Below are positions 44,891 through 58,738 of a DNA stretch of 64,000 bases, in pieces; position 1 is the stretch's first letter, and each line of letters begins with the position of its first letter. Position numbers and translations under genes: made by a program. The notes beneath the pieces were generated by a model. That model saw nothing but the letters and a program-made list of their open reading frames with translations, was not told the DNA's origin and searched no databases. The stretch is from Mesoterricola silvestris (lineage in GTDB: Bacteria > Acidobacteriota > Holophagae > Holophagales > Holophagaceae), in NCBI RefSeq assembly GCF_030295405.1, contig NZ_AP027080.1:3704001-3768000 (forward strand), written 5' to 3'.

Positions 44891-46570
44891 TCATTCCACC
44901 AAGCCGCCGTCCAGGGGCACCCGAAGGGTCATGCGCGTGAGGGCGCCGGGCTCGCAGTGGATCTCCGGCCCCGCGCCGGGGCCGAAAAGGCTCGCCAGGC
45001 GCTTCCGGACGATGGGCAGGCCCAGGCCCTCCCGGGAGCGCCGGGCCTCCTCGTAGGCCCCCGCGTCGTCCTCCACGTCGATGCGCAGCGCCCCGCCCTC
45101 GGGGAAGGCGAGGATCCGCACCGTGCCCGGCCCGGCCATGCGGGAGACGCCGTGGCGGATGGCGTTCTCCACGAGCGGCTGCAGGGTGAAGGTGGGCACC
45201 TTCACCCGCCGGAAGGCCGGGGCCACGTCGATCTCCACCCGGAGCCCCTCGAAGCGGGCCTTCTCGATCTCCAGGTAGGCCCGGATGTGCTCCAGCTCCT
45301 CCTCCAGGGTGCTCAGCTCGCCGTGGCGCTGGAGGTTCTTGCGGAAGTACCCCGAGAGGTGGCCCACCAGCTCCCGGCCCCGGGCCGCGTCGCTGCGGAG
45401 GATGGCCATGATGGTGTTCAGGGAGTTGAAGAGGAAGTGGGGGTTCACCTGGGCCCGCAGGAGCCTGAGTTCGCTCACGACCAGGAGGTTCTTCTGCTCC
45501 TCGTACTTGGCGATGAGCAGCTGGCTGGAGAGCAGGGCCCCGATGCCCTCCCCCAGGCGGCGGTTCATGTGCAGGAACCGCCGGTTCTTGGGCTCGAAGA
45601 GCTGCACCGTGCCCAGCACCGTGCCGTCCACCTCCAGGGGCACCACCAGGGCCGAGTGCAGGGGGCAGTCGCCGGAGACGCCGCAGGTGAAGGCCTGGTG
45701 CACGCCGTCGGCGAAGACCACGGCCCGGTCCTGCATGGCCTGCCGGGTGAGGGCCGAACTGATGGGGCCCCCGGGCCGGTGGTGGTCCGCCCCCAGCCCC
45801 ACGAAGCCCAGCACGTGCTCGTTGTCGGTCACCGCCACGGCCCCGACCCCGGTCTCCTCCTTGACGATGGCCGCCATCTCCCCCGCCGTGGCCGGGCCGA
45901 AGCCCCGGCCCAGGAGGCCCAGGGCGCGCTCGGCCACGCGCAGCGCCGCGGCCGAGGACGCCGCGGCCACCCGGTCCAGGTCCCGCTGCCGGTGCATCAG
46001 CACCGCCATGAGCAGGGCCGCGCCCACGGGGTTGAGGAAGACCATGGGCGGGGCGATGACCTTGACGATCTCCACGGCGTCGGGGAAGGGCCGGGTCAGC
46101 AGCAGCACGATGCCCATGTGCAGCACCTCCCCGGCGAAGGTGGCCAGGAGGGCGGTGCGCATGGTGATGAGCACCTCCGGCCGGTCCCGCAGCCTGCGGT
46201 TCAGGAATCCCGCCAGCAGCCCCTCCAGGGTGGTGGCCACCGCCCCCGACAGGGCGGCGATGCCCCCCAGGCTCATGCGGTGCACCCCGGCGGTGGCGCC
46301 CACCAGGCCCCCCAGCGCCGGTCCCCCCAGGAGCCCCGCCAGCACCGCCCCCACGGCCCGGGCGTTGATGATGGCCCCGCCCTTGAGCACCGGGGTGCCC
46401 AGGTAGTTGCCCAGGATGGTGATGCCCGTGAACACCAGGAACAGGCGCACCCTCCCCCGCGGCCGGGCCCAGTCCGAGGACAGGGGCCGGAACGCGGGGG
46501 ATTCGCAGTAGAGGTAGAACAGAACCAGGAAGGCCGAGATGGTCTGGAAGAGCGTCACCAGCGATCGCAC
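44891..46570 (-). CDS. LytS-type sensor histidine kinase with 5TMR and GAF-like domains
   Basis: 559 residues starting at GTG. Five to six membrane segments at ~1-190 match 5TMR-LYT (ARAVGAVLAGLLGGPALGGLVGATAGVHRMSLGG is the family core). A GAF-like region follows (about 210-345), then the His_kinase domain with the acceptor in QVNPHFLFNSLNTIMAIL and a HATPase (PLVENAIRHGVSRM; REGLGLPIVRKRL). It follows the lut genes on the same strand, 16 bases after lutB. The likely response regulator is the LytTR gene at 49452, divergent from lutC. Confidence 0.93.
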   Translation of the reverse strand: MRSLVTLFQTISAFLVLFYLYCESPAFRPLSSDWARPRGRVRLFLVFTGITILGNYLGTPVLKGGAIINARAVGAVLAGLLGGPALGGLVGATAGVHRMSLGGIAALSGAVATTLEGLLAGFLNRRLRDRPEVLITMRTALLATFAGEVLHMGIVLLLTRPFPDAVEIVKVIAPPMVFLNPVGAALLMAVLMHRQRDLDRVAAASSAAALRVAERALGLLGRGFGPATAGEMAAIVKEETGVGAVAVTDNEHVLGFVGLGADHHRPGGPISSALTRQAMQDRAVVFADGVHQAFTCGVSGDCPLHSALVVPLEVDGTVLGTVQLFEPKNRRFLHMNRRLGEGIGALLSSQLLIAKYEEQKNLLVVSELRLLRAQVNPHFLFNSLNTIMAILRSDAARGRELVGHLSGYFRKNLQRHGELSTLEEELEHIRAYLEIEKARFEGLRVEIDVAPAFRRVKVPTFTLQPLVENAIRHGVSRMAGPGTVRILAFPEGGALRIDVEDDAGAYEEARRSREGLGLPIVRKRLASLFGPGAGPEIHCEPGALTRMTLRVPLDGGLVE

Positions 46571-46586: not shown

Positions 46587-48719
46587 TCACTTCAGACGTT
46601 TCGCGAGCCTCACGGCGGTGTGCTCGACCTTGATGCCGGACCCCAGCTTATCCAGTCCGCCCCGGATCTGCATCACGCACCCCGGGCAGTCCATGGCCAC
46701 CGAGGTCGCCCCGGTGTCCTTGATGTTCTCGAGCTTGCGCTCGAGGATGGGGGCGCTCAGTTCGGGCAGCTTGAGGGAGTAGGAGCCCGCCATGCCGCAG
46801 CAGGTGTCGCACTCCTTCATCTCGGTGACGGTGAAGCCGGCCTTCTTCAGGAGGTCCCGGGGGGCCTGCTGGGCGTTCAGGGTCCGCTTCAGGTGGCAGG
46901 AATCGTGGTAGGTGATCGTCTCGGCCTGCTGGCCGTCCTTGAACTCCAGCCGGCCTTCGTCCACGAGCTTCTTCACCAGGGTGGCGAAGTCGATGGTCTT
47001 GGCGGAAAGGACGCGGGCCCCCTCCAGGTCGTCCCCCATGCCCAGGCTCTCGAAGGTGGAGATGAAGTCGTCCCTCAGGGCCACGGTGCAGGTGGGGCAG
47101 GCCGATACCACGTACTGGACGTCCTCCTCCAGCAGCGCCTTGATGTTCTCCCGGGCGTTGCCCGCGGCGGTCTCGTAGGCGCCGTTGTACCGGGCCGGGG
47201 CGCCGCAGCAGGTCTGGCCCTCGGGGAAGACCACCCGGATGCCGGCCTTGTTCAGCACCCGCACCACCGCCTCGCCCATCTCGGGGTAGGCGAAGTCGAT
47301 GAGGCAGCCCGCGTAGATGGCGGCCTTCTCCTTGCACTCGGGCTGGACGATCTCCTTGAAGGTGTCCCGGAAGGGCCGGGGCGCGATGGCCGGCAGGCTC
47401 CGGAAGTCCGTCATGCCGGAAAGGAAGAGCGGCAGGTGCCGGATGAAGCCGCCCTTGGCGAAGGGCTTCTGGGCCACGGAGGCCGCGCGCAGCAGGGAAT
47501 GGAAGAGCCGCCGGTTGTTCACCACCGCGAAGATGCCCTTCTGCACCAGCGGCATGCCCTTCTCCACCGCCAGGCGCCGGCGCAGTTCCAGGATGAGGTC
47601 GGGGATGTCGATGCGCCCGGGGCACACGTCCTTGCAGGCCCCGCACTGGATGCAAAGGCCCTGGATGTCGTCGGACTGCTTGAGCTCGTCGAACCAGGCC
47701 GTGAGGATGGTGCCGATGCCCCCGGTGTAGACCTTGCCGAAGACGTGCCCGCCCACGAGGCGGAACACGGGGCACACGTTGAGGCACGACGCGCAGCGGA
47801 TGCACTGGAGGGCCTGGCGGAACTTGGGGTCCGCGGCCATCTCGGTGCGCTTGTTGTCCATGAGGATGATGTGCAGTTGCTTGGGGCTGCCGTCGGTGTT
47901 GGGGACCTGGCCCGTGATGATCGACACGTAGCTGGTGAGGAGCTGGCTGGTGGCGTTGCGCGGAAGGGCCTGGAGGATGGGCTGCACGTCCTGGAAGCTG
48001 GCCACCAGCTTCTCGATGCCCACCACCGCCACGTGGATCCGGGGAAGGGTCGTCACGAGCCGGGCGTTGCCTTCGTTGGTGACCAGCACGAGGCTGCCGG
48101 TCTCGGCCACGGCGATGTTGGCGCCGGAGATGCCCATGTCCGCGTCCAGGAACCGGTTCCGCAGCTTGCCCCGGGCGAACTTCACCAGCTTGGGGATATC
48201 GGGCTGCTGGCCCTCCTCCACCTTGGTGGAGAAGACCTCGGCCACCTCCTCCTTGGTCATGTGGATGGCGGGCATCACCATGTGGGAGGGGGTCTGGTGG
48301 CAGAGCTGGATGATCCATTCGCCCAGGTCGGTCTCGTACACCTCGATGCCCGCGGCCTCCAGGTGCTTGTTGAGGTGGATCTCCTCGGTGGCCATGGACT
48401 TGGATTTGACGATGGAGCGCACGCCGTTCTCCTTGGCCAGGGCCAGGATGTAGGCCTTCACCTCGGCGGGGTCCGAGGCCCGGTAGACCTTGGCGCCCGC
48501 GGCCTCGGCCTTGGCCTTGAAGGCCTCGGCCAGTTCCTCGAGATGGGAGGCGCCGTGGGCCTTCACGTCCCGCACCGCGTCCCGCACCGCCTGGAAGTCC
48601 ATGCCCGCGTAGGCCTTCTCCCGGCTGATCTTGTAGGCTTCGGAAAAGCGCCCCAGGGCGCCCCTGAGATTGGGGTTGGCCAGGGCCTCCTGGATGGATT
48701 CCTTGAACGTCGCGGTCAT
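46587..48719 (-). CDS. lutB: LutB-LutA fusion, L-lactate oxidation iron-sulfur protein
   Basis: A 710-residue protein. Residues ~60-300 are the LUD domain (KSMATEEIHLNKHLEAAGIEVYETDLGEW). Then two [4Fe-4S] motifs CIRCASCLNVCP and CIQCGACKDVCPG, and a C-terminal ~250-residue part with two CCG motifs (GQTCCGAPARYNG and CDTCCGMAGSY), i.e. LutA. In Bacillus these are separate LutA and LutB; here they are fused. ATG 48717-48719 overlaps the lutC stop. Together with LutC it oxidises L-lactate to pyruvate. Confidence 0.93.
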   Translation of the reverse strand: MTATFKESIQEALANPNLRGALGRFSEAYKISREKAYAGMDFQAVRDAVRDVKAHGASHLEELAEAFKAKAEAAGAKVYRASDPAEVKAYILALAKENGVRSIVKSKSMATEEIHLNKHLEAAGIEVYETDLGEWIIQLCHQTPSHMVMPAIHMTKEEVAEVFSTKVEEGQQPDIPKLVKFARGKLRNRFLDADMGISGANIAVAETGSLVLVTNEGNARLVTTLPRIHVAVVGIEKLVASFQDVQPILQALPRNATSQLLTSYVSIITGQVPNTDGSPKQLHIILMDNKRTEMAADPKFRQALQCIRCASCLNVCPVFRLVGGHVFGKVYTGGIGTILTAWFDELKQSDDIQGLCIQCGACKDVCPGRIDIPDLILELRRRLAVEKGMPLVQKGIFAVVNNRRLFHSLLRAASVAQKPFAKGGFIRHLPLFLSGMTDFRSLPAIAPRPFRDTFKEIVQPECKEKAAIYAGCLIDFAYPEMGEAVVRVLNKAGIRVVFPEGQTCCGAPARYNGAYETAAGNARENIKALLEEDVQYVVSACPTCTVALRDDFISTFESLGMGDDLEGARVLSAKTIDFATLVKKLVDEGRLEFKDGQQAETITYHDSCHLKRTLNAQQAPRDLLKKAGFTVTEMKECDTCCGMAGSYSLKLPELSAPILERKLENIKDTGATSVAMDCPGCVMQIRGGLDKLGSGIKVEHTAVRLAKRLK

Positions 48720-49240
48720 GCCGCACCCCCTTCGACGAAGACGATGACGAGCCGCTCCGGCCCGTGGACGCCGATGGTGAGGACCCGCTCGATGTCCGCG
48801 GTGCGGCTGGGCCCGGTGATCATGGAGAGGTAGCAGGCCTTTTCCGGCTTGATGCGGCCCAGGACGGAGGCCATGTCCGGCAGGAGCCGGTCCGCCCCGA
48901 TGAGGGCCACGTGGATCTGGGGCAGGGTCGACACCAGGCGGGACCCCACTTCGGTGGCGTCCACCACCAGGGTTCCCGTGTCCGCCAGGGCCCATTCCAT
49001 CTGGCTGATGCCCACCTTCGCCTGGGCCGCGCCCTCGCGGGTGACGTCGTAGGAGAGGCCCGGGAAGGCCGGGCGGCCCTGGGCCTCCAGGAAGGCGCAG
49101 GGGGCCCAGAGGGCCGTACCGCCTACCTCCCTCAGCAGCCCGTGGACGAAGTCCCGGGCCTCGGCGGCCGTGCCGCAGCGGTGCACTTCGGCGCTGACGG
49201 CCTCGGCGCGTTCCTTGAATGAAGCGAACAGGTTGTCCAT
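48716..49240 (-). CDS. lutC: LutC-type lactate utilization protein
   Basis: 174 residues of the LUD domain alone: GISQMEWALADTGTLVVDATEVGSRLVSTLPQIHVALIGADRLLPD is diagnostic, with PEKACYLSMITGPSRTADIERVLTIGVHGPERL. It is the first gene of the lactate operon and overlaps the next by four bases (ATGA). The divergent LytTR gene at 49452 starts about 210 bases upstream and may control it. Confidence 0.92.
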   Translation of the reverse strand: MDNLFASFKERAEAVSAEVHRCGTAAEARDFVHGLLREVGGTALWAPCAFLEAQGRPAFPGLSYDVTREGAAQAKVGISQMEWALADTGTLVVDATEVGSRLVSTLPQIHVALIGADRLLPDMASVLGRIKPEKACYLSMITGPSRTADIERVLTIGVHGPERLVIVFVEGGAA

Positions 49241-49451: not shown

Positions 49452-50165
49452 ATGCTGCGGGCGGTGCTGGTGGACGACGAGCTCCACGCCAGGGAGGAGC
49501 TCGAGGCCCTGCTGGCCGAGACCGGCGAGGTGACCGTGGTGGGCACCTGCCCCGGCGCCGTCCAGGGCCTGCGCACCCTGCGGGAGACGCGGCCCGACGT
49601 GCTCTTCCTGGACATCTCCATGCCCGGGGTGGACGGCATGCAGATGCTCAGCATGATCGAACCCGACGCCATGCCCTGCGTGATCTTCGTGACCGCGTAC
49701 GACGAGTACGCCCTCAAGGCCTTCGACCGCAACGCCGTGGACTACCTCCTCAAGCCCGTGGAGCCCGCGCGCCTCGCCCAGGCCCTGGAGCGGGTGAAGC
49801 GGTTCCTGGGCGAGGGCCGCCGCCCCGCCAACGCGGGCCCCCCCATCGACCGCATCCCCTGCCTCGCCGGCCCCAACATCAAGCTCGTGGACACCGCCGA
49901 GGTGGAATGCGTGCGCTCCTCCGAGGCCGGCGTCCACGTGGTGACCCCCCGGGGCGAGTTCCTCACCGAACTCACCCTCACGGTCCTGGAGGCCAAGGGC
50001 GCCAACCTGGTGCGCTGCCACAAGCAGTACCTGGTGAACCTGGCCTGCATCGACGAGATCGACCGCCGCGACCCCGCCGCCGCCTTCATCCGCACCCGCA
50101 CGGGAAGGACGGTGCCCGTGAGCCGGAGGTACCTGGCCCCGCTCAAGGAGCGGCTGGGCATCTAG
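49452..50165 (+). CDS. LytTR-family response regulator
   Basis: 237 residues: receiver (RAVLVDDELHAREELEALL; Asp in LFLDISMPGVDG; VTAYDEYALKAF; LLKPVEP) and LytTR DNA-binding domain (NIKLVDTAEVECVRSSEAGVHV, LVRCHKQYLVNLACIDEI). GGGAGG lies upstream of the ATG. It is divergent from the lutC operon, whose last gene is a LytS kinase, so the pair plus the lut genes form a likely sensing and control unit for lactate or a related carboxylate. Confidence 0.92.
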   Translation: MLRAVLVDDELHAREELEALLAETGEVTVVGTCPGAVQGLRTLRETRPDVLFLDISMPGVDGMQMLSMIEPDAMPCVIFVTAYDEYALKAFDRNAVDYLLKPVEPARLAQALERVKRFLGEGRRPANAGPPIDRIPCLAGPNIKLVDTAEVECVRSSEAGVHVVTPRGEFLTELTLTVLEAKGANLVRCHKQYLVNLACIDEIDRRDPAAAFIRTRTGRTVPVSRRYLAPLKERLGI

Positions 50166-50339: not shown

Positions 50340-53300
50340 ATGGCAAGCGACCCGCAATCCAAATCCCTTCTCGGCATGCTCCTGGTTGGCCTGCTGGGGG
50401 TCGGCTATGTCTCGACCCAGAAGGCGCCCCCGGAGGCGCCCCCCCAGGCGGGGACGGTTCCGGGGGAAAAGCAGGGGACCGAGGTGCAGAACCCACTCCT
50501 GGACAGGACGACCCTGAAGCCGTATCTGGACTTCATCCAGGGGAGCGTCGGGCGTCCCCAGGTGCTGGGAGCCGAGACCTACCTGTTCCGCGGCGCCCAG
50601 GGTCCGCCGGGCATCGCGGTCCGGGGCGAAAAGGGGGGCGACAGCCGCAGCCTCTGGGAGGCCCTGGGGGCCAGGAACGAGGGGCCCCGGGAGGCCAGGC
50701 CGGATTCCCGGGCCCTCCTGGCCCAGGACCCCCACCTGCGCATCCTCCTGGCCACCATTCCCGATCCGGACCACTCGGACCTCACGTACGATTTCGACCA
50801 GGGCGTCCAGGCGGTGGAGGCGGCCTTCCACGACATGAAGTGGTACCTGGCGGGGCAATGGATCCCCGAACAGGACGGGGATTCCAAGGGCAGGGCCCCG
50901 GACATGCCCAGGAGCCTCCTCTTCGTGAAGCCGTTCATGGCGGCCATCGATCCGGAGGAGGGCGAGATCCCGCTTCCCTGGGTCCAGGCCTACGACAAGC
51001 GCCTGGTGCTCCTCCTCCCGGAATCGCCGCGGCTGGGGCTCCGGCGCGCGCCCCTGCTTCATGCCATGAACCTGGTCAAGGGCAGGGAGCTCGGCCCCCT
51101 CTCGAAACCCGGCCTCGACCGGAAGGCCCTGCAGGTGCTCCATGCGAAAAGGGTCGCCGAAACCCTGCTGGGTGACTTCCTCATCTTCGTGCAGGGGCTG
51201 GACGGGGCGGACGCGGCGGAGAGGACCGCCCTGCGGGAATTCGATACCGGAGCCCAGGCCCTTCGCGAACGGTGCCTTGCCATCATCGATGGGGCCGGGC
51301 CCGACATCGGCCAGGACGCCATCCGGGGATCGCTCCTGGCGGGGTCCGCCCCGGGCGCAGGTCCCGGCCTCCTCGTGCTCCAGTGGAGCAGGCTTCCGGA
51401 AGCCAAGGCCCTCCTGGCGGCCCACGCCGGGATGGGCCCCAGGCTGAAGCGGCTCCTGGAGCCCGGCCTGCGCCGCCTGCAGGAGGCGCTCTGGGAGACC
51501 CTGGGGCGGCTGGACCGGGAGCGCGCGCCGTTCCTGACCATCCTGGGTCCCAGGTACTCCGGGAGCGCCGGGGATCTCGGATGGGCGATCCGGCAGATCT
51601 GGGGGGAGGAGAGGAAGGTGCTCATGCTGAGCACCGGGAGCACGAATGAGAGCCTGCGGGGCTGGACCTTCAGGCCGAACGGCGTTCCCGGGGCGGAGGA
51701 CAGGAGCGAATGGAAGCCATCCCTCCCTTCCTTCGTGGCCTTCCACGGCCTGATTCCCGACGACAGGGCCTACGACGCCGCGCTGTGGGAGACCCTCGAA
51801 TCCTGCCTGGGGCAGGATCGGAGGTTCTGGGCCGAGTGCGTGGAAAGCGACACCCTGTTCGGGAGCCTGGCCTCCGGAGGCGCTTTCGGGCGGGAGTCGC
51901 TGACGCCGGATCCCGGGGAGATCCGGAGCTATCCGGTGCCCTCGCACCTGGCCGTCCTCCGGAGGGCGAGGGCGGACCAGGGGGAACCCGGCGGGCTGGA
52001 ACTCGGCAAGCCCCTGAAGGAGACCCTGGGCCGCATCGGGAACCTGGAACTCAAGGGCGAGTCCACCGGCCTGGACCGGGGACTCCATTTCCTGAACCCG
52101 AACAGCGCGGTGGACGCCGACCTGTCCCTTTCGAACCTGATCCAGGACGTCAAGCGGCGCCACCTCCTGGGGGTGCGGATCCGCATGAGCTCCTTCTCCA
52201 ATACGCTGTTCCTGGCCACCTGGCTCCGGTCGCACCTCACCGGGGCGAGCCTGGCCATGGATTGGACCAGCCAGCTGTTCCTGCACCCCAAGCTGTCCGC
52301 GGACCTGGATGGGGTCTTCTGCATCGGGCCGATGCCGCCCTACCCGGGCCTGGTGCGGGGAACCACGGGCCTGCCGTCCCGGGGGAGCGCCCTGCGGGAA
52401 CCGGGGTACTGGGAAGAAACGACCGTCCTGACCCGGGACGCCCTTTGGCTGCTCGAGAACGTGGTTCCCAACGGACTCCGGCCCCGGAAGCACAGGGGCC
52501 TCCAGGACTGGCTGCTCCTGGCGCCCGAGCTGGACACCCGGGCCCTCGCCTGGGAAACCGACCCGGCGGACCCCGGCCTGAGGACCCTGCGGCACCAACT
52601 GTGGATCACCCAGCTGCACCAGGGGCGAAGCGAGCCCGTGCGGGCCGTCCTGGTGCCCCCCCAGGCCCGGGGCGAGGACTTCCGGGAATTCCCCTTCCGG
52701 GTCCACGCCTTCCCGCTTTCGGGCCCGGTACCCGGAGGCGCCCCTCCCGCGGACCTCGGGAAGGTCCAGAACCTGCCCCTCAAGGTGTTCCACCCTGCCC
52801 TTTCCCAGGGGGCGATCCAGCGCCTCGCCCATGCTCTGCTGCTGGGCGCCAGCCTGGCCATGGCCCTGGGGTGGCGCACCTGCGCCAGGCTTCTCCTGGG
52901 GGGTGCCCCGCACCGGGAATGCCGCTTTTCCAAGGGCGGGTCCTGGCTGGTCGCATGGCTCATGGCCCTCCTTCCGCTCCAGGTGCTGCTGCCCCTGGGC
53001 GCGCAGGGGTGCCTCTTCGCCCTGCTCGAGGACCGCGGAAGCCTGGATGGCCTGGCCACCCTGAGCCTCCTCGCCGGGGCCCTGGGCTCGATCGGGGTGG
53101 CGGGGATGGTGTTCCGGGTTTCCTGGAAGTTCCTGGCCCGGACCCCGGAGTTCTGGCCAGGCGGCAGCAGGACCGTCAGCCTCGGGATTCTGGTCGCGGT
53201 CTGGTCCGGCGCCCTGGTGTATGCGGCGATCCTTGCGGGGCGAGGCTGGCTGGGCGCCCGGGGAGCCGTGGACACATCCGCCTTCTTCCTCCTGCGCCGG

Positions 53301-54467
53301 CTCCAGATGCCCCTGACCGGGTCCGGCCTGGCATCCCTTCTCGGCCTTTCCTACCTTTTGTCCTTCGCGAGCCTCGTGCTGGAGGCCAAGGCCTTCCATT
53401 CCATACGGGCGAGGGGGCTCTCTCTGGTCTGCCTGGCCCGGGAGGGGTGGTTCGAAGGGAAGGGCGCCACCCGGTGGATGGAATCGCTGCACCGGGAGGT
53501 CACGCGGCCCATCAACGTGTGCCCAGCGGGGCCGTGGCCGCGTTTCGCAGCGGCGTCCGGGGGCGCGCTGCTCGTCCTGGGCGGGCTCCTGGTGGGGGTG
53601 GCGCGGCCCGAAGGCCCGGCGCCCTGGGGCGAGGAGACCTTCCTGCTGCTCGCCTATCTCGTGGGATCCGCCCTGGTGGCGGGCCTGGGCTACCGGGCGG
53701 TCCGGATCTTCCTGAAGGTGGAAGGGGCCTCCAGACTCCTGCTCACGGCGCCCTTCATGAACGGTTTTGCCATAGCGGGGAAAGCCTATGGCTGGCTCCC
53801 CCCGTGGGGTCTCCATTGGCTGGGCGAACGCCATTCCCTCGAGCCCCTCCAGGCGGTGCGCGAACTCGCCGCCCGCATCGGGAGGGAATCCGGGGACACC
53901 CGCTTCAAGGCCATCACGACCCGGCTGAAGGTCCTCGTCGGCCAGGCCCAGCGCGCCGCCTCGGAGACGGGCCATGGGAGGCCGGGAATGGCATGCCAGC
54001 GGTCGGGGGAGGTCAAGCTCGCCCTGATGCTGGATATCACCTTGCGGCACCTGGTCCATTGGGCCAAGGGGATGGTCCGGCAGGACGGGGACCTTCAGGG
54101 CCTCCAGGCCCTGGTGGCCTACATGTGCCTCCGCCGGGCCCTCGTCCAGGTGCGCCAGGCCCTGCTCGGGATGTTCGTGATCACCCTGATGCTGGTCTTC
54201 ATCGCCTCCACGCCCATCCACGACCGCTCCCTGGCTCCGGCCCTGGTGGTGGTGCTGGCCGTGGAAGTGGCCCTGGCCATGGTGATGATCGCGCGCCTGG
54301 AACGGAATCCGCTTTTCAGCCTCGTCGCGGGTACCACTCCGGGGAAGATGGACTGGAACAGCGGCGTGGTGCTTTCCCTCGCCCAGCCCGCCCTCGTCCT
54401 GGGCCTCGGGTTCCTGCTCACCCGATTCCCCGCGGCCGCGACCTTCTTCCAGACCCTGATGCCATGA
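50340..54467 (+). CDS. giant membrane protein with periplasmic-binding-protein-like region
   Basis: 1375 residues. An N-terminal helix (10-27) would export residues ~30-815. This part repeats the layout of a type-I periplasmic binding fold: LLATIPDPDHSDLTYDFDQ at ~136, FLTILGPRYSGSAGDLGWAI at ~399, VESDTLFGS at ~500, and IRMSSFSNTLFLATWLRSHL at ~614 followed by SQLFLHPKLSADL. About ten membrane helices fill 826-1365. I know of no named family; the binding-fold link is inferred from motif order and resembles large proteins I have seen in environmental bacteria. A 1813-residue antisense ORF is a composition shadow. It is followed by two hydrolase genes on the same strand. Confidence 0.75.
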   Translation: MASDPQSKSLLGMLLVGLLGVGYVSTQKAPPEAPPQAGTVPGEKQGTEVQNPLLDRTTLKPYLDFIQGSVGRPQVLGAETYLFRGAQGPPGIAVRGEKGGDSRSLWEALGARNEGPREARPDSRALLAQDPHLRILLATIPDPDHSDLTYDFDQGVQAVEAAFHDMKWYLAGQWIPEQDGDSKGRAPDMPRSLLFVKPFMAAIDPEEGEIPLPWVQAYDKRLVLLLPESPRLGLRRAPLLHAMNLVKGRELGPLSKPGLDRKALQVLHAKRVAETLLGDFLIFVQGLDGADAAERTALREFDTGAQALRERCLAIIDGAGPDIGQDAIRGSLLAGSAPGAGPGLLVLQWSRLPEAKALLAAHAGMGPRLKRLLEPGLRRLQEALWETLGRLDRERAPFLTILGPRYSGSAGDLGWAIRQIWGEERKVLMLSTGSTNESLRGWTFRPNGVPGAEDRSEWKPSLPSFVAFHGLIPDDRAYDAALWETLESCLGQDRRFWAECVESDTLFGSLASGGAFGRESLTPDPGEIRSYPVPSHLAVLRRARADQGEPGGLELGKPLKETLGRIGNLELKGESTGLDRGLHFLNPNSAVDADLSLSNLIQDVKRRHLLGVRIRMSSFSNTLFLATWLRSHLTGASLAMDWTSQLFLHPKLSADLDGVFCIGPMPPYPGLVRGTTGLPSRGSALREPGYWEETTVLTRDALWLLENVVPNGLRPRKHRGLQDWLLLAPELDTRALAWETDPADPGLRTLRHQLWITQLHQGRSEPVRAVLVPPQARGEDFREFPFRVHAFPLSGPVPGGAPPADLGKVQNLPLKVFHPALSQGAIQRLAHALLLGASLAMALGWRTCARLLLGGAPHRECRFSKGGSWLVAWLMALLPLQVLLPLGAQGCLFALLEDRGSLDGLATLSLLAGALGSIGVAGMVFRVSWKFLARTPEFWPGGSRTVSLGILVAVWSGALVYAAILAGRGWLGARGAVDTSAFFLLRRLQMPLTGSGLASLLGLSYLLSFASLVLEAKAFHSIRARGLSLVCLAREGWFEGKGATRWMESLHREVTRPINVCPAGPWPRFAAASGGALLVLGGLLVGVARPEGPAPWGEETFLLLAYLVGSALVAGLGYRAVRIFLKVEGASRLLLTAPFMNGFAIAGKAYGWLPPWGLHWLGERHSLEPLQAVRELAARIGRESGDTRFKAITTRLKVLVGQAQRAASETGHGRPGMACQRSGEVKLALMLDITLRHLVHWAKGMVRQDGDLQGLQALVAYMCLRRALVQVRQALLGMFVITLMLVFIASTPIHDRSLAPALVVVLAVEVALAMVMIARLERNPLFSLVAGTTPGKMDWNSGVVLSLAQPALVLGLGFLLTRFPAAATFFQTLMP

Positions 54468-54561
54468 ACCGCCATCCCTGCCCTTAACCCGCTCCCGGCC
54501 GGCCGCATCGAGGCCGCCGGCCCGGGGCCTTTCCAGGCCGAGGCCTGCTGAGGAGGTTCCC

Positions 54562-55866
54562 ATGCCCCTTCCGGTTGGGATCATCATCTCGGACATCCAT
54601 CTCGGGGACCCCAGGGGGGTCGTCCCCGACCCGCCCATGGCGGGATGCGCGACCCTGAACGGGGTCTCGGTCCGCCAGGGCTGGGTGGACTGGATGGACC
54701 GCGTGGACCAGCAGCTCGCCGCCCAGGGTGAGGGGGCCCGCATCCCGTACCTCGTGCTCAACGGCGATTTCTGGGATATCGCCATCCGCAACGTGGATGA
54801 GGCCGCGGCCCTGTCCCTGGACTTCTTCCGGGCCGTGGAGGTGGAGAAGCGCTTCTCCTCGATCCTGTTCCTGCCGGGGAACCACGACCACTACCTCTGG
54901 AGCCTGGTCCAGATCGAGACGTCCATCCTCCGCCCCCTGGAGAACCTGCGCCAGCAAGGGACCGGGACCCAGACGAGCGGCGTCTGGAAACTGCCCCATT
55001 CCCAGTGCGCCACCCTGGACTTCCGCAAACCGGGCGGCCCCGAGCTGTCCCTCTGGAGGGTGAAGCCGCCCTACGTGGGCAATGTGTTCGCGGGGGGGCT
55101 CACCGGCGGCCGGATTCCCGTGAATGTGGCCTACCCCAACCTGCACCTCCTCCGGCCCAGCGGCGGCGCGTGCGTCGTCACCCACGGCCATTTCTTCCAG
55201 CAGGCCTGGACCCTCATCAGCGATCTGCTCCGCTCCTCCCTCGGGCCCCACATTCCCGGCGGCATGGATCTCTACTGCCTGGAGCTCCTGGATGCGGGGC
55301 TGACGGATTTCATCAACTACTCCCTGGGGCAGGTGGGCCCGCTCAGTTCCGTCGTCCAGGGCATCTACGATCAGGTGCGCATGGGGAAGGAACCCCCCGA
55401 AATCGCCAAGATCCTGAGCGCCCTGAGGAAGGTGCTGGATGACGCGGTCTCCTTCACGGACGAGCCCTGGTGGAAGGCCGGGCCCCTGGAGTGGGGCAGC
55501 GACCGGTTCATCGATTTCGAGCTCCTGGTGGCCCGGAAGCTCCTGGAGTCGGCCATCAAACGGGCGGGTGGGGGCAACGTGCTGCCCAAGGGCCGCAATG
55601 TCACGAATTTCCTGAAGGACCCGGAGAATTGTGCCAAGATCGCCGATTACCTGGACTGCACCCAGCGGGACCCGTCCGTCCAGGGCGTCCGCTTCGACGA
55701 GATGGTGTTCGGCCACACCCATGAAACCATTTCCGGCGACGTGCTCACCCTGGACGGTGGCCGGACCCTGAAGTGCTGGAACACGGGCAGCCTGGTTTCC
55801 CAGAGCGACCGGACCGACTTCATGCCCCTGGCCATCGACGCGGCGGGCCTCATCAGCCCCTTCTGA
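54562..55866 (+). CDS. calcineurin-like metallophosphoesterase
   Basis: 434 residues. All five metal-binding blocks are present: SDIHLG (Asp11, His13), NGDFWD (Asp69), GNHDH (107-110), VVTHGHFF and GHTHET. The N- and C-terminal blocks are separated by a large ~180-residue helical insertion without known motif. The layout recalls LpxH-like and UshA-unrelated cytosolic phosphoesterases, but no signal peptide is present and the substrate is unknown. AGGAGG just upstream of ATG 54562 gives strong initiation. It sits 94 bases after the giant membrane protein gene. Confidence 0.92.
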   Translation: MPLPVGIIISDIHLGDPRGVVPDPPMAGCATLNGVSVRQGWVDWMDRVDQQLAAQGEGARIPYLVLNGDFWDIAIRNVDEAAALSLDFFRAVEVEKRFSSILFLPGNHDHYLWSLVQIETSILRPLENLRQQGTGTQTSGVWKLPHSQCATLDFRKPGGPELSLWRVKPPYVGNVFAGGLTGGRIPVNVAYPNLHLLRPSGGACVVTHGHFFQQAWTLISDLLRSSLGPHIPGGMDLYCLELLDAGLTDFINYSLGQVGPLSSVVQGIYDQVRMGKEPPEIAKILSALRKVLDDAVSFTDEPWWKAGPLEWGSDRFIDFELLVARKLLESAIKRAGGGNVLPKGRNVTNFLKDPENCAKIADYLDCTQRDPSVQGVRFDEMVFGHTHETISGDVLTLDGGRTLKCWNTGSLVSQSDRTDFMPLAIDAAGLISPF

Positions 55867-55894
55867 ATCCGGAACCCAGCGGGAGGAACGGACC

Positions 55895-56488
55895 ATGAAC
55901 ACCGATTCCGTGAAGGACGTGACCACCTTCGCCCTGGAGGGCCTGGCCCTCAGGACGGGCGATCTGATCTGCACCACCGACGGGGAAGGCCCCGGCGAAA
56001 AGGGCCAGTTCTGGTGGCTCCTGGGCCGGCTCATCCCCGGCGACGTGGACCATATCGTCATCTACGTGGGCCCGGGCGGCCGATGCGTGGAGGCGGCGGC
56101 CAAAGGAAGCGTGGTCGCCTTCGAACTATCCGGCCCCACCTGGGATGCCCCGGCCATGTTCGACCAGCGGGGCGTCCGGGACCTGCTGTACGGCATCGGG
56201 GACCCGGTGGCCGGTCGCGGCCTGGACTCCGAGGACCCGATCCGCCTGGCGGCCGCGAACTACTGCCTGGACCAGGCCCGGCAAGCCAAGCCCTACAACC
56301 TGAACTTCCTGGATTCCGGGACGGACAAGGCCTTCTACTGCAGCCAACTCGCCTACAAGGCCTACCTGCCGCTGGGGATCGACCTGAACTCCGGGGTCGG
56401 GGTGCCGTCCATTCCCGGGACGGGGTCCATCATCTTTCCGCAGGAAGTTTGGAATGCCTGCAGGGTGAAGCGGAGGGCGAAACCCTGA
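55895..56488 (+). CDS. permuted papain-like hydrolase (YiiX/NlpC-P60 type)
   Basis: 197 residues. The permuted NlpC/P60 arrangement is visible: the His comes first (LRTGDLICT then VDHIVIYVGPGGRCVEA, His53) and the Cys last (DKAFYCSQLAYKAYLPLGI, Cys149), as in YiiX/YebB and related proteins that cleave peptides or act on acyl groups. No signal peptide is seen, so a cytoplasmic or lipid-facing role is possible. GGGAGGA precedes the ATG. It lies 28 bases after the phosphoesterase gene; the three genes appear to form one unit. Confidence 0.85.
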   Translation: MNTDSVKDVTTFALEGLALRTGDLICTTDGEGPGEKGQFWWLLGRLIPGDVDHIVIYVGPGGRCVEAAAKGSVVAFELSGPTWDAPAMFDQRGVRDLLYGIGDPVAGRGLDSEDPIRLAAANYCLDQARQAKPYNLNFLDSGTDKAFYCSQLAYKAYLPLGIDLNSGVGVPSIPGTGSIIFPQEVWNACRVKRRAKP

Positions 56489-56620: not shown

Positions 56621-56759
56621 TTCATCCCAGACATCACTGTTCATCCCTGTTCCGCAGGGCCAAGGCTTGGATGGGTCGGCGAATGTGGGTAATGCGCGCG
56701 CCGACCCGACCCATCGCGGGCCCTGCGTAACAGGGATGAACAGTGATGCCTGGGATGAA
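56621..56759. repeat. long-hairpin dispersed repeat, copy C
   Basis: Arms 56621-56661 and 56719-56759 are inverted copies at 39 of 41 positions (TTCATCCCAGACATCACTGT and the rest of the arm). Inside, ATGGGTCGG pairs with CCGACCCAT, so the unit can form one ~139-base hairpin. It resembles copy B at 37976 closely and copy A weakly. No gene lies in 56489-56828. Confidence 0.85.
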
Positions 56760-56828: not shown

Positions 56829-57143
56829 TCAGCATTCCGGGTCGAATGGGAACGTGCCCGGGCCAATCGCTTCCTCCTGCCGGTGGACATAGGTTATTGC
56901 CAAGGATGTACCGTGGTCCTCGTAGAGGATCCGCAACGGCCGAACGAGGATCTCGCGATAGAATCCGGGTCCAAATTCAGGCACCCAGCGGCCCCTTTCA
57001 GGATGTTCCAGAAGCCGCCTGAGGCTTGCATCCACCTTTCTTCGCAGGGCTCGGGCGGCGTCGGGATTGAAGGCGCCGATGTGATCCAGGCGCTCGGCGA
57101 ATTGCTCGGCGGCCGGCTCCGTCCAGACCACCTTCAATCCCAT
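56829..57143 (-). CDS. RelE/ParE-family toxin
   Basis: 104 residues beginning MGLKVVWTEPAAEQFAERL, the usual ParE/RelE N-terminus, then AFNPDAARALRRKVDASLRRLLEHPERGRWVPEFG and FYREILVRPLRILYE, ending with VHRQEEAI. ParE members poison gyrase, RelE members cut mRNA; the sequence alone does not decide, but REILVRPLRILYE fits ParE best. ATG 57141-57143 lies inside the antitoxin gene's end (10-base overlap), the classic coupled arrangement. Confidence 0.87.
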   Translation of the reverse strand: MGLKVVWTEPAAEQFAERLDHIGAFNPDAARALRRKVDASLRRLLEHPERGRWVPEFGPGFYREILVRPLRILYEDHGTSLAITYVHRQEEAIGPGTFPFDPEC

Positions 57144-57394
57144 TTCCGGGTCCTGGCCATGACGTCCTCGTGGCTCAAGGTTCGCCCTTCCGCAAGGGCC
57201 CTCTGCCCGTTGATGATGCCTTCCAGCAGCGCAATCTTTCGCTCCTGCATCCGGTAGGTGGCCACATCCATGAGAATGGCGGCCTCCCGGCCGTGTTCCG
57301 TTATCAACAAGGGCTCCTGCGCCTGCTGAAGAGCCTCTATGATCTCCGTGGCTTTGCGCTTGATGTCGGTCACCGGCACGAGCTTGGGTAGCAT
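57134..57394 (-). CDS. Phd/YefM-type antitoxin
   Basis: 86 residues: MLPKLVPVTDIKRKATEIIEALQQAQEPLLITEHGREAAILMD is the Phd/YefM DNA-binding and dimer fold, and the acidic C-terminal part (ALAEGRTLSHEDVMARTRKWD) should wrap the toxin. GAGAGG upstream supports ATG 57392-57394. The complex normally represses its own promoter, expected in the ~110 AT-rich bases upstream. The upstream part of the frame was rejected as start. Confidence 0.87.
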   Translation of the reverse strand: MLPKLVPVTDIKRKATEIIEALQQAQEPLLITEHGREAAILMDVATYRMQERKIALLEGIINGQRALAEGRTLSHEDVMARTRKWD

Positions 57395-57577
57395 GGTTGA
57401 GGCCCTCTCCTGGACACCTTGTATCAAAATTGTAGTCTTTTGATGATACATGTCCACCTCTGCCCAGGGGGCCGCATTCGCGCGACCTGCCCCGCAACCG
57501 ACGTCTCGTGTCCATCCCGGCGGAGCCGCTCGCCAAGGGCGCGGTGGCCATGCACCCCCGGCGCGCGTTGACCGGAA

Positions 57578-58738
57578 TCAGGCCTGGCGCCGCGCCAGCC
57601 CCCCCTGCCCCCGCAGGCCCTCCAGGATTCCCGGCAGGACGGCTTCCACCCGGGCCACCTCCGCCTCCGTGGTGTAGCGGCTCAGGGAGAACCGCACGGC
57701 GCCCAGCGCGTCGGGAGCCCCCATGGCCCGGAGCACGTGGCTGGCCTCCTTCTGGCCGGTGGTGCAGGCGCTGCCGGTGGAGACGCAGATGCCGGCCTCG
57801 TCCAGGCGCAGGAGGACGGCCTCGCCCTCCACGTCCGCGAAGCTGATCATGGAGGTGTTGGGCACGCGGGGCGCCTGGGCGCCGTGCACGGTGGATCCGG
57901 GGATGTGGTCCAGGATGAAGGCCTCCAGGCGGTCCCGCAGGGGGCCCACCCGGGAATCCCCGGCCAGATGGGTGCGGGCCAGGTCCGCGGCCACGCCCAG
58001 GCCCACGAGGCCGGGCACGTTCTCGGTGCCGCCGCGCCGGCCTCGCTCCTGGCCGCCGCCGATCATGAAGGGGCGCAGGCGCAGGCCCCGCCTCAGGAAG
58101 AGGCCGCCCACACCCTTGGGGCCGTGGAACTTGTGGCCGCTGAAGTTGAAGAGGTCCGCGGGGATCCGGGCCAGGTCCACGGGCACCTTGCCCAGGGCCT
58201 GGGTGCCGTCCACGTGGAAGAGGATGCCCCGGGCCTTCACGAGGCCGCCGATCTCCTCCAGGGTGAAGCGCACGCCGGTCTCGTTGTTGGCGGCCATGAC
58301 CGAGACCATCGCGGTGTCGGGGGTGAGGGCCGCCTCCAGGGCGGCCAGGTCCAGGCGGCCCTGGGCGTCCACGCCCAGGATCGTCACCTGGGCGCCCTGC
58401 CTGCGCAGCCAGTCCACGCAGGCCAGCACGGCGCTGTGCTCCACGGCGGTGGTGACGAAGTGGCGCTTGGCCGGAAGGGCCTCGAAGACGCCGCGGAAGG
58501 CGTGGTTGATGCCCTCCGTGCCGCCGCTGTTGAAGACCAGTTCGGCCGGGGCGCAGCCCAGGAGGGCGGAAACCCGCTCCCGGGCCACCACCACCGCCCC
58601 CTCCGAGAGCCGGCCCAGGGTGTGGCCGCTCCCGGCGTTGCCGAACTGCTCCCCCAGGTAGGGCAGCATGGCCTCCAGGGCCTCGGGGGCGAGGCGGGTG
58701 GTGGCGTTGTTGTCAAGGTACACGGCGGCTTCCGGCAT
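57578..58738 (-). CDS. cysteine desulfurase (NifS/IscS family)
   Basis: 386 residues, PLP-dependent, supplies sulfur for Fe-S clusters and thio-modifications. Signatures: YLDNNATTRLAPEALEAM, FNSGGTEGINHAFR, HVDGTQALGKVPVDL, SGHKFHGPKG (PLP Lys) and CVSTGSACTTGQKEASHVL with the catalytic Cys, typical of class I enzymes. No scaffold gene (iscU/nifU) is adjacent, so IscS-like versus NifS-like is not decided. Isolated downstream of the toxin-antitoxin pair; nine bases separate it from the glycosyltransferase. Confidence 0.92.
   Translation of the reverse strand: MPEAAVYLDNNATTRLAPEALEAMLPYLGEQFGNAGSGHTLGRLSEGAVVVARERVSALLGCAPAELVFNSGGTEGINHAFRGVFEALPAKRHFVTTAVEHSAVLACVDWLRRQGAQVTILGVDAQGRLDLAALEAALTPDTAMVSVMAANNETGVRFTLEEIGGLVKARGILFHVDGTQALGKVPVDLARIPADLFNFSGHKFHGPKGVGGLFLRRGLRLRPFMIGGGQERGRRGGTENVPGLVGLGVAADLARTHLAGDSRVGPLRDRLEAFILDHIPGSTVHGAQAPRVPNTSMISFADVEGEAVLLRLDEAGICVSTGSACTTGQKEASHVLRAMGAPDALGAVRFSLSRYTTEAEVARVEAVLPGILEGLRGQGGLARRQA

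Follow-up and report, generated by a model that had tools for sequence, protein, structure and literature searches.

The 64,000-nucleotide stretch of Mesoterricola silvestris DNA analysed here (contig NZ_AP027080.1; hereafter the window) carries three adjacent genes, for a giant membrane protein and two hydrolases. Do these three genes form one system, and what might the giant do? The features of the locus are as follows.

49452..50165, + strand: LytTR response regulator, conserved left border (Pfam; synteny in two congeners)
50340..54467, + strand: giant membrane protein, 1375 aa (ORF, homologues, hydropathy, model)
50727..52679, + strand: DNA of the giant's ectodomain, ~aa 130-780 (AF2 model, Z of 20.3 to 3td9; in-register profile match)
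54562..55866, + strand: calcineurin-like metallophosphoesterase (MPE), 434 aa (PF00149 above cut-off; five metal motifs)
55895..56488, + strand: C92 (YaeF/YiiX-like) permuted papain-fold hydrolase, 197 aa (PF05708 weak; orthologue above cut-off; triad)
56621..56759, no strand: dispersed palindromic repeat with 61-nt arms (one of ~40 genomic loci; REP- or MITE-like)
56829..57457, - strand: ParE-type toxin and Phd/YefM antitoxin, within the variable site
57578..58738, - strand: IscS/NifS-like aminotransferase, conserved right border (in all six genus genomes; synteny; named from sequence)

The three co-directional genes described in the initial annotation were present and intact at these coordinates, separated by intergenic gaps of 94 and 28 bp. 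Shine-Dalgarno-like sequences (GGGGAGG, AGGAGG and GGAGG, respectively) preceded the three ATGs, and the GC3 values of 0.89 to 0.91 were those expected for coding DNA in a GC-rich genome. Long ORFs in other frames competed with the block genes, as anticipated at such GC. The reading frame of the giant is nevertheless secure, because a 1370-aa homologue with ~30% identity exists in genome G066 and more than 20 proteins form a family sharing its motifs. A search for promoter or terminator consensus sequences between the three genes found none, which is weak evidence. The three genes likely form an operon.

We compared the giant with the models of Pfam, NCBIfam and PADLOC, and no match was obtained. 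Hydropathy analysis showed one N-terminal membrane segment (anchor helix at ~aa 9-27) and, in agreement with the initial annotation, approximately ten C-terminal segments from aa 825 to 1370, with a cytosolic helical stretch at ~aa 1125-1275 within the predicted membrane-helix region. The giant itself has no catalytic output domain. Between the anchor and the membrane helices lies an ectodomain (~aa 130-780) with the motifs LLATIPDPD, ILGPRYSGS, AECVESDTLFG and SFSNTLFLA, and some of its polar residues, such as D153, E502 and R541, are invariant across the family. A large helical insertion at ~aa 255-395 distinguishes the window protein and the member at locus L032 from other family members.

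An AlphaFold model of aa 1-838 built with 21 sequences had a mean pLDDT of 58.9 and a pTM of 0.62; in its core, many strands and helices lay at pLDDT ~75-90. In a Foldseek search with the giant model, the list consisted throughout of solute-binding proteins and of the ectodomains of ionotropic glutamate receptors (iGluR) and GABA-B/mGlu receptors, with a best E of 0.003 and probabilities reaching 1.00. The closest solved folds were solute-binding proteins of ABC importers, and VIA-align superimposed the model on LivK (3td9) with a Z of 20.3 and an rmsd of 3.4 Å over 310 residues spanning 133-775. The full-length model of a divergent homologue (L049) also matched the binding-protein fold, with a Z of 21.3 and a Foldseek probability of 1.00. 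Independently of AlphaFold, the family profile aligned in register with Peripla_BP_6 proteins of the same phylum, placing ILGPRYSGS on GPxxSG and AECVESDTLFG on a later strand motif (AxxxExxTxFG). This profile-profile match is weak but consistent, since its E value of 0.001 comes from a single comparison; at the sequence level, the ectodomain had no match at E≤1 to the Peripla_BP_6 or ANF_receptor models of Pfam/NCBIfam. The models of two divergent members together with the in-register profile match give good support to the assignment, first suggested in the initial annotation and now reached by both structure prediction and fold search, that the ectodomain is a type-1 periplasmic binding domain (LivJ/ANF type, two-lobed α/β). 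Such a domain may capture a small molecule.

The membrane domain was modelled poorly, with pLDDT of ~50-70 over most of its first half, but the helices in this low-confidence model agreed with the roughly ten C-terminal segments given by hydropathy. No permease or other Pfam model matched it at E≤1. The models used for fold searching included the ectodomain, whose binding-protein matches filled the lists, and no known fold appeared there for the membrane part. Matches of this part to the β2 adrenergic receptor and LMBD1 (E of 0.002 to 1) were rejected as hydrophobic composition.

Both hydrolase assignments of the initial annotation were borne out. MPE scored 23.0 bits against PF00149 (cut-off 21.5) and possesses all five metal motifs, DIHLGD (11), NGDFWD (67), GNHD (106), THGH (207) and FGHTH (383), which are kept in the orthologues of G001 (54% identity) and G002 (70% identity). 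Relative to other calcineurin-like metallophosphoesterases, it shares the five motifs but is longer, with family-specific insertions. The third gene product has the permuted order of a C92 enzyme, with His53, Glu66, Cys149 and the Tyr in 'KPYN' as the catalytic set, all of which are kept in a 52% identical orthologue in G009. The window protein reached 21.1 bits against PF05708, below the cut-off of 27, whereas the G009 orthologue scored 32.6 bits. The His-Glu-Cys order and the Tyr are those of the C92/YaeF-YiiX permuted NlpC/P60 enzymes; in work on the YiiX type, a fatty acid was found bound in YiiX, and lipid-like or lipid-amide substrates were proposed (PMC3142127). No signal peptide was seen in MPE or in the C92 protein. 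Against PADLOC, MPE had a trivial match only (E of 0.002) and the C92 protein had none.

The site occupied by the block differs among congeners. In G002, the distance between LytTR and iscS is only 73 bp. G004 shares most flanking genes with the window at 89-97% identity, and there the gap holds a BlaI-like repressor and a BlaR1/M56-like peptidase (both in L177:2268-4883) as well as a small ABM-domain protein. The corresponding neighbourhood in G001 likewise lacks the block. This variation of the LytTR-iscS site marks the block as an accessory insert. The toxin-antitoxin pair which the initial annotation had placed at one border is real (ParE and Phd/YefM); the repeat at 56621-56759, however, occurs in ~40 copies in the genome and is thus not a boundary, the true borders being LytTR and iscS. 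At the left border, LUD-domain genes (46587-49240) stand between a LytS-like sensor kinase (44891-46570) and the LytTR regulator (49452-50165); insertions aside, this gene order is kept in G004 and G002.

We then searched for relatives of the giant among the sampled genomes. A first screen of 60 relatives with a single-sequence query gave the window giant as the sole match. A profile search found members in no fewer than 24 of the 396 Acidobacteriota genomes sampled, representing 13 of 210 genera; the figure of 24 is a lower bound, few candidates having been scored per genome and G082 having been found separately. None was found in other sampled genomes of the genus. Members are ~1060-1435 aa long, share motifs and are patchily distributed. 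G066 contains two deeply different ones (L032 and L087), and broken-looking copies occur in G166 and G277 (one in-frame stop each) and in G243. A genome-contig scan with patterns from the window and L032 gave no further members, and an alignment of twelve family members was too divergent to serve as a search query. No close relatives were found among viral contigs and plasmids. The family tree tracks host families more than chance allows, although its branches are long and its deep nodes unsure; the agreement with host families fits old presence with many losses better than recent spread. We found no description of this family in open-licence papers, and it is apparently unnamed.

The trio of giant, MPE and C92 hydrolase occurred together in no other sampled genome. 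A genome-contig scan for MPE gave one locus, that of the congener UBA706 (G002; L010:51-4230), where a polytopic 356-aa membrane protein with no Pfam match is encoded before the orthologue and a PLD-family enzyme after it, a further case of a membrane protein grouped with hydrolases. The G001 orthologue stands alone, outside such a group. The giant is absent near both, and the G009 orthologue of the C92 gene has neither the giant nor MPE beside it. These orthologues without the giant, and the other neighbours of family members elsewhere, argue against the three-gene system envisaged in the initial annotation. That annotation took homologues lacking both hydrolases as counter-evidence; their occurrence tells against a fixed cassette and leaves the receptor idea standing.

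Other hydrolases do adjoin the giant at several loci. In Holophagaceae, a C1 papain-type peptidase lies 9-18 bp upstream of it (L040, L049 and L088); a C39/C70-like peptidase is upstream in L034, and an N-acetylmuramidase-papain fusion is 4 bp downstream in L097. In total, papain-fold enzymes of four kinds were found near homologues in four lineages. As a control, 139 genes lying further out in these loci were examined, and their 25 most frequent families, a listing that would omit single matches, included no papain-fold family. A patatin lies 31 bp from the giant in L096 and 269 bp from it in L033. Many loci have no adjacent hydrolase, for example L036, L043, L090 and L091. A Ser/Thr kinase gene is directly upstream of the giant in L046, with a related kinase gene in L097; sigma-54 activators adjoin some members, and a response regulator is found in L092. 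Across the 24 giant-bearing genomes, 5 of 12 PF00112 (C1) matches are neighbours of the giant and come from two independent lineages; these are small counts, and four of the five giant-adjacent matches are mutually orthologous. The C1 gene is often present in Holophagaceae without the giant; in G067 (L124), the order of sigma-54 activator, C1 and SnoaL is intact and the giant is missing. As the C1 gene persists without the giant, the hydrolase link is recurrent but loose. The hydrolases beside other members hint at a link from receptor to hydrolase.

Several of these loci have further features of their own. In the fusion protein of L097 (6544-9135, 863 aa), an N-acetylmuramidase is joined to a papain-like part and perhaps also to an α/β-hydrolase part; its papain-like middle was read from motifs, Pfam giving the muramidase and a sub-threshold PF00112 match. 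In L096 (5699-13489), the giant is followed by a 1071-aa protein of the patatin-DUF3376 type, a protein of 1047 aa that matches no Pfam model and a membrane protein, a relative of which also adjoins the giant of L039. L033 (10538-13366) carries a homologue of animal haem peroxidases (942 aa) downstream of the giant, the patatin being upstream. L088 (G070) and L124 (G067) are two states of one locus: the giant stands between C1 and SnoaL in the former and is missing from the latter.

Considering these data, we tentatively favour the reading, somewhat short of even odds, that the giant is an accessory sensor-type inner-membrane protein with changing enzyme partners. The N-terminal helix would anchor it, and the external type-1 binding domain would capture a small molecule. 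The membrane domain of about ten helices and the cytosolic helical part may then relay the state of the binding domain inward, where MPE and the lipid- or amide-type C92 hydrolase, both soluble, would be the local outputs or partners of the giant. The block itself is an accessory element inserted at a variable site, and other family members have other partners. The tight co-directional spacing is suggestive, as are the hydrolases, Ser/Thr kinases and sigma-54 activators adjacent at other loci. Several points weaken the sensor reading: MPE and C92 accompany the giant in one genome, several relatives keep C1 but lack the giant, many loci have no hydrolase next to it, the giant carries no catalytic output domain, and its membrane domain was modelled at low confidence. 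That the giant belongs to a new receptor class, widespread though patchily distributed in Acidobacteriota, whose LivJ/ANF-type domain is fused to a ten-helix domain with direct control over exchangeable hydrolases in the cytosol (papain-fold, patatin, phosphoesterase), appears unlikely.

The strongest rival, which we consider rather doubtful, is a chance assembly of three unrelated accessory genes in one variable site, at most co-transcribed. The variability of the site among congeners, the MPE orthologues found with a membrane protein and PLD (G002) or alone (G001), the solitary C92 gene of G009 and the lack of a second sampled genome with the trio are all consistent with it. However, the short gaps of 94 and 28 bp, the common strand and the similar GC3 argue against it, as does the recurrence of hydrolases, mainly papain-fold, beside the giant in independent lineages. 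A transporter, in which fused binding and permease-like domains import a phosphorylated or acylated compound for processing by the enzymes inside, would agree with the ABC-importer proteins as closest solved folds and with ten membrane helices, and fused binding protein-permease proteins are known. It is improbable, as neither the window nor the individually inspected neighbours of family members showed an ABC ATPase gene next to the giant, and the membrane domain lacks a Pfam permease match at E≤1.

A conflict or defence role, in which the giant senses an envelope insult (phage, toxin) and sets free hydrolases in the cytosol to attack the lipids, wall or nucleotides of the cell itself, has a low probability: the patchy accessory distribution, the locus with and without the giant, the changing hydrolytic partners (patatin, muramidase-papain, C1, C92 and MPE) and the toxin-antitoxin pair in the same variable site would suit it, but PADLOC gave nothing for the giant and C92 and a trivial match for MPE, no defence family was recurrent among 92 neighbours of the giant's relatives, and the tree points to old vertical descent with losses rather than rapid transfer. 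The defence reading offered in the initial annotation thus found no positive evidence in PADLOC or among the neighbours of relatives. Among the neighbours, PADLOC also gave kinase-type matches (PD-T4-6); given the Ser/Thr kinase of L046, these probably reflect kinases in general and were set aside.

In bacteria, binding-protein ectodomains work with ABC importers or signalling proteins; in eukaryotes, they belong to ionotropic glutamate receptors and class C GPCRs. Compared with type-1 periplasmic binding proteins and ANF receptors (Peripla_BP_6; LivJ, LivK and AmiC; iGluR and class C GPCR ectodomains), the giant shares the two-lobed fold and GPxxSG in register. However, its identity to the periplasmic binding proteins is ~10%, it does not reach the Pfam threshold, and its domain, anchored in the membrane, leads into about ten helices. 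Like class C GPCRs, it has an ANF-like ectodomain followed by membrane helices, but these number about ten C-terminal segments rather than the seven that define the class. The favoured reading, a sensor with enzymatic partners, would be analogous in logic to GlnH-GlnX-PknG of Corynebacterium, in which a periplasmic binding protein acts via a polytopic protein on a cytosolic enzyme (PMC9769921). GlnH, GlnX and PknG are separate proteins, GlnX having four helices and a CHASE3-like domain (PMC9769921). Two members of the giant's family likewise adjoin a Ser/Thr kinase gene, a likeness of logic. The giant's family adds an architecture to the known uses of such ectodomains, a binding-protein ectodomain joined to about ten membrane helices in a separate bacterial family. 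If the hydrolase link is true, this architecture would provide a membrane sensing route to the breakdown of lipid, wall or nucleotides in Acidobacteriota, where signalling is little studied.
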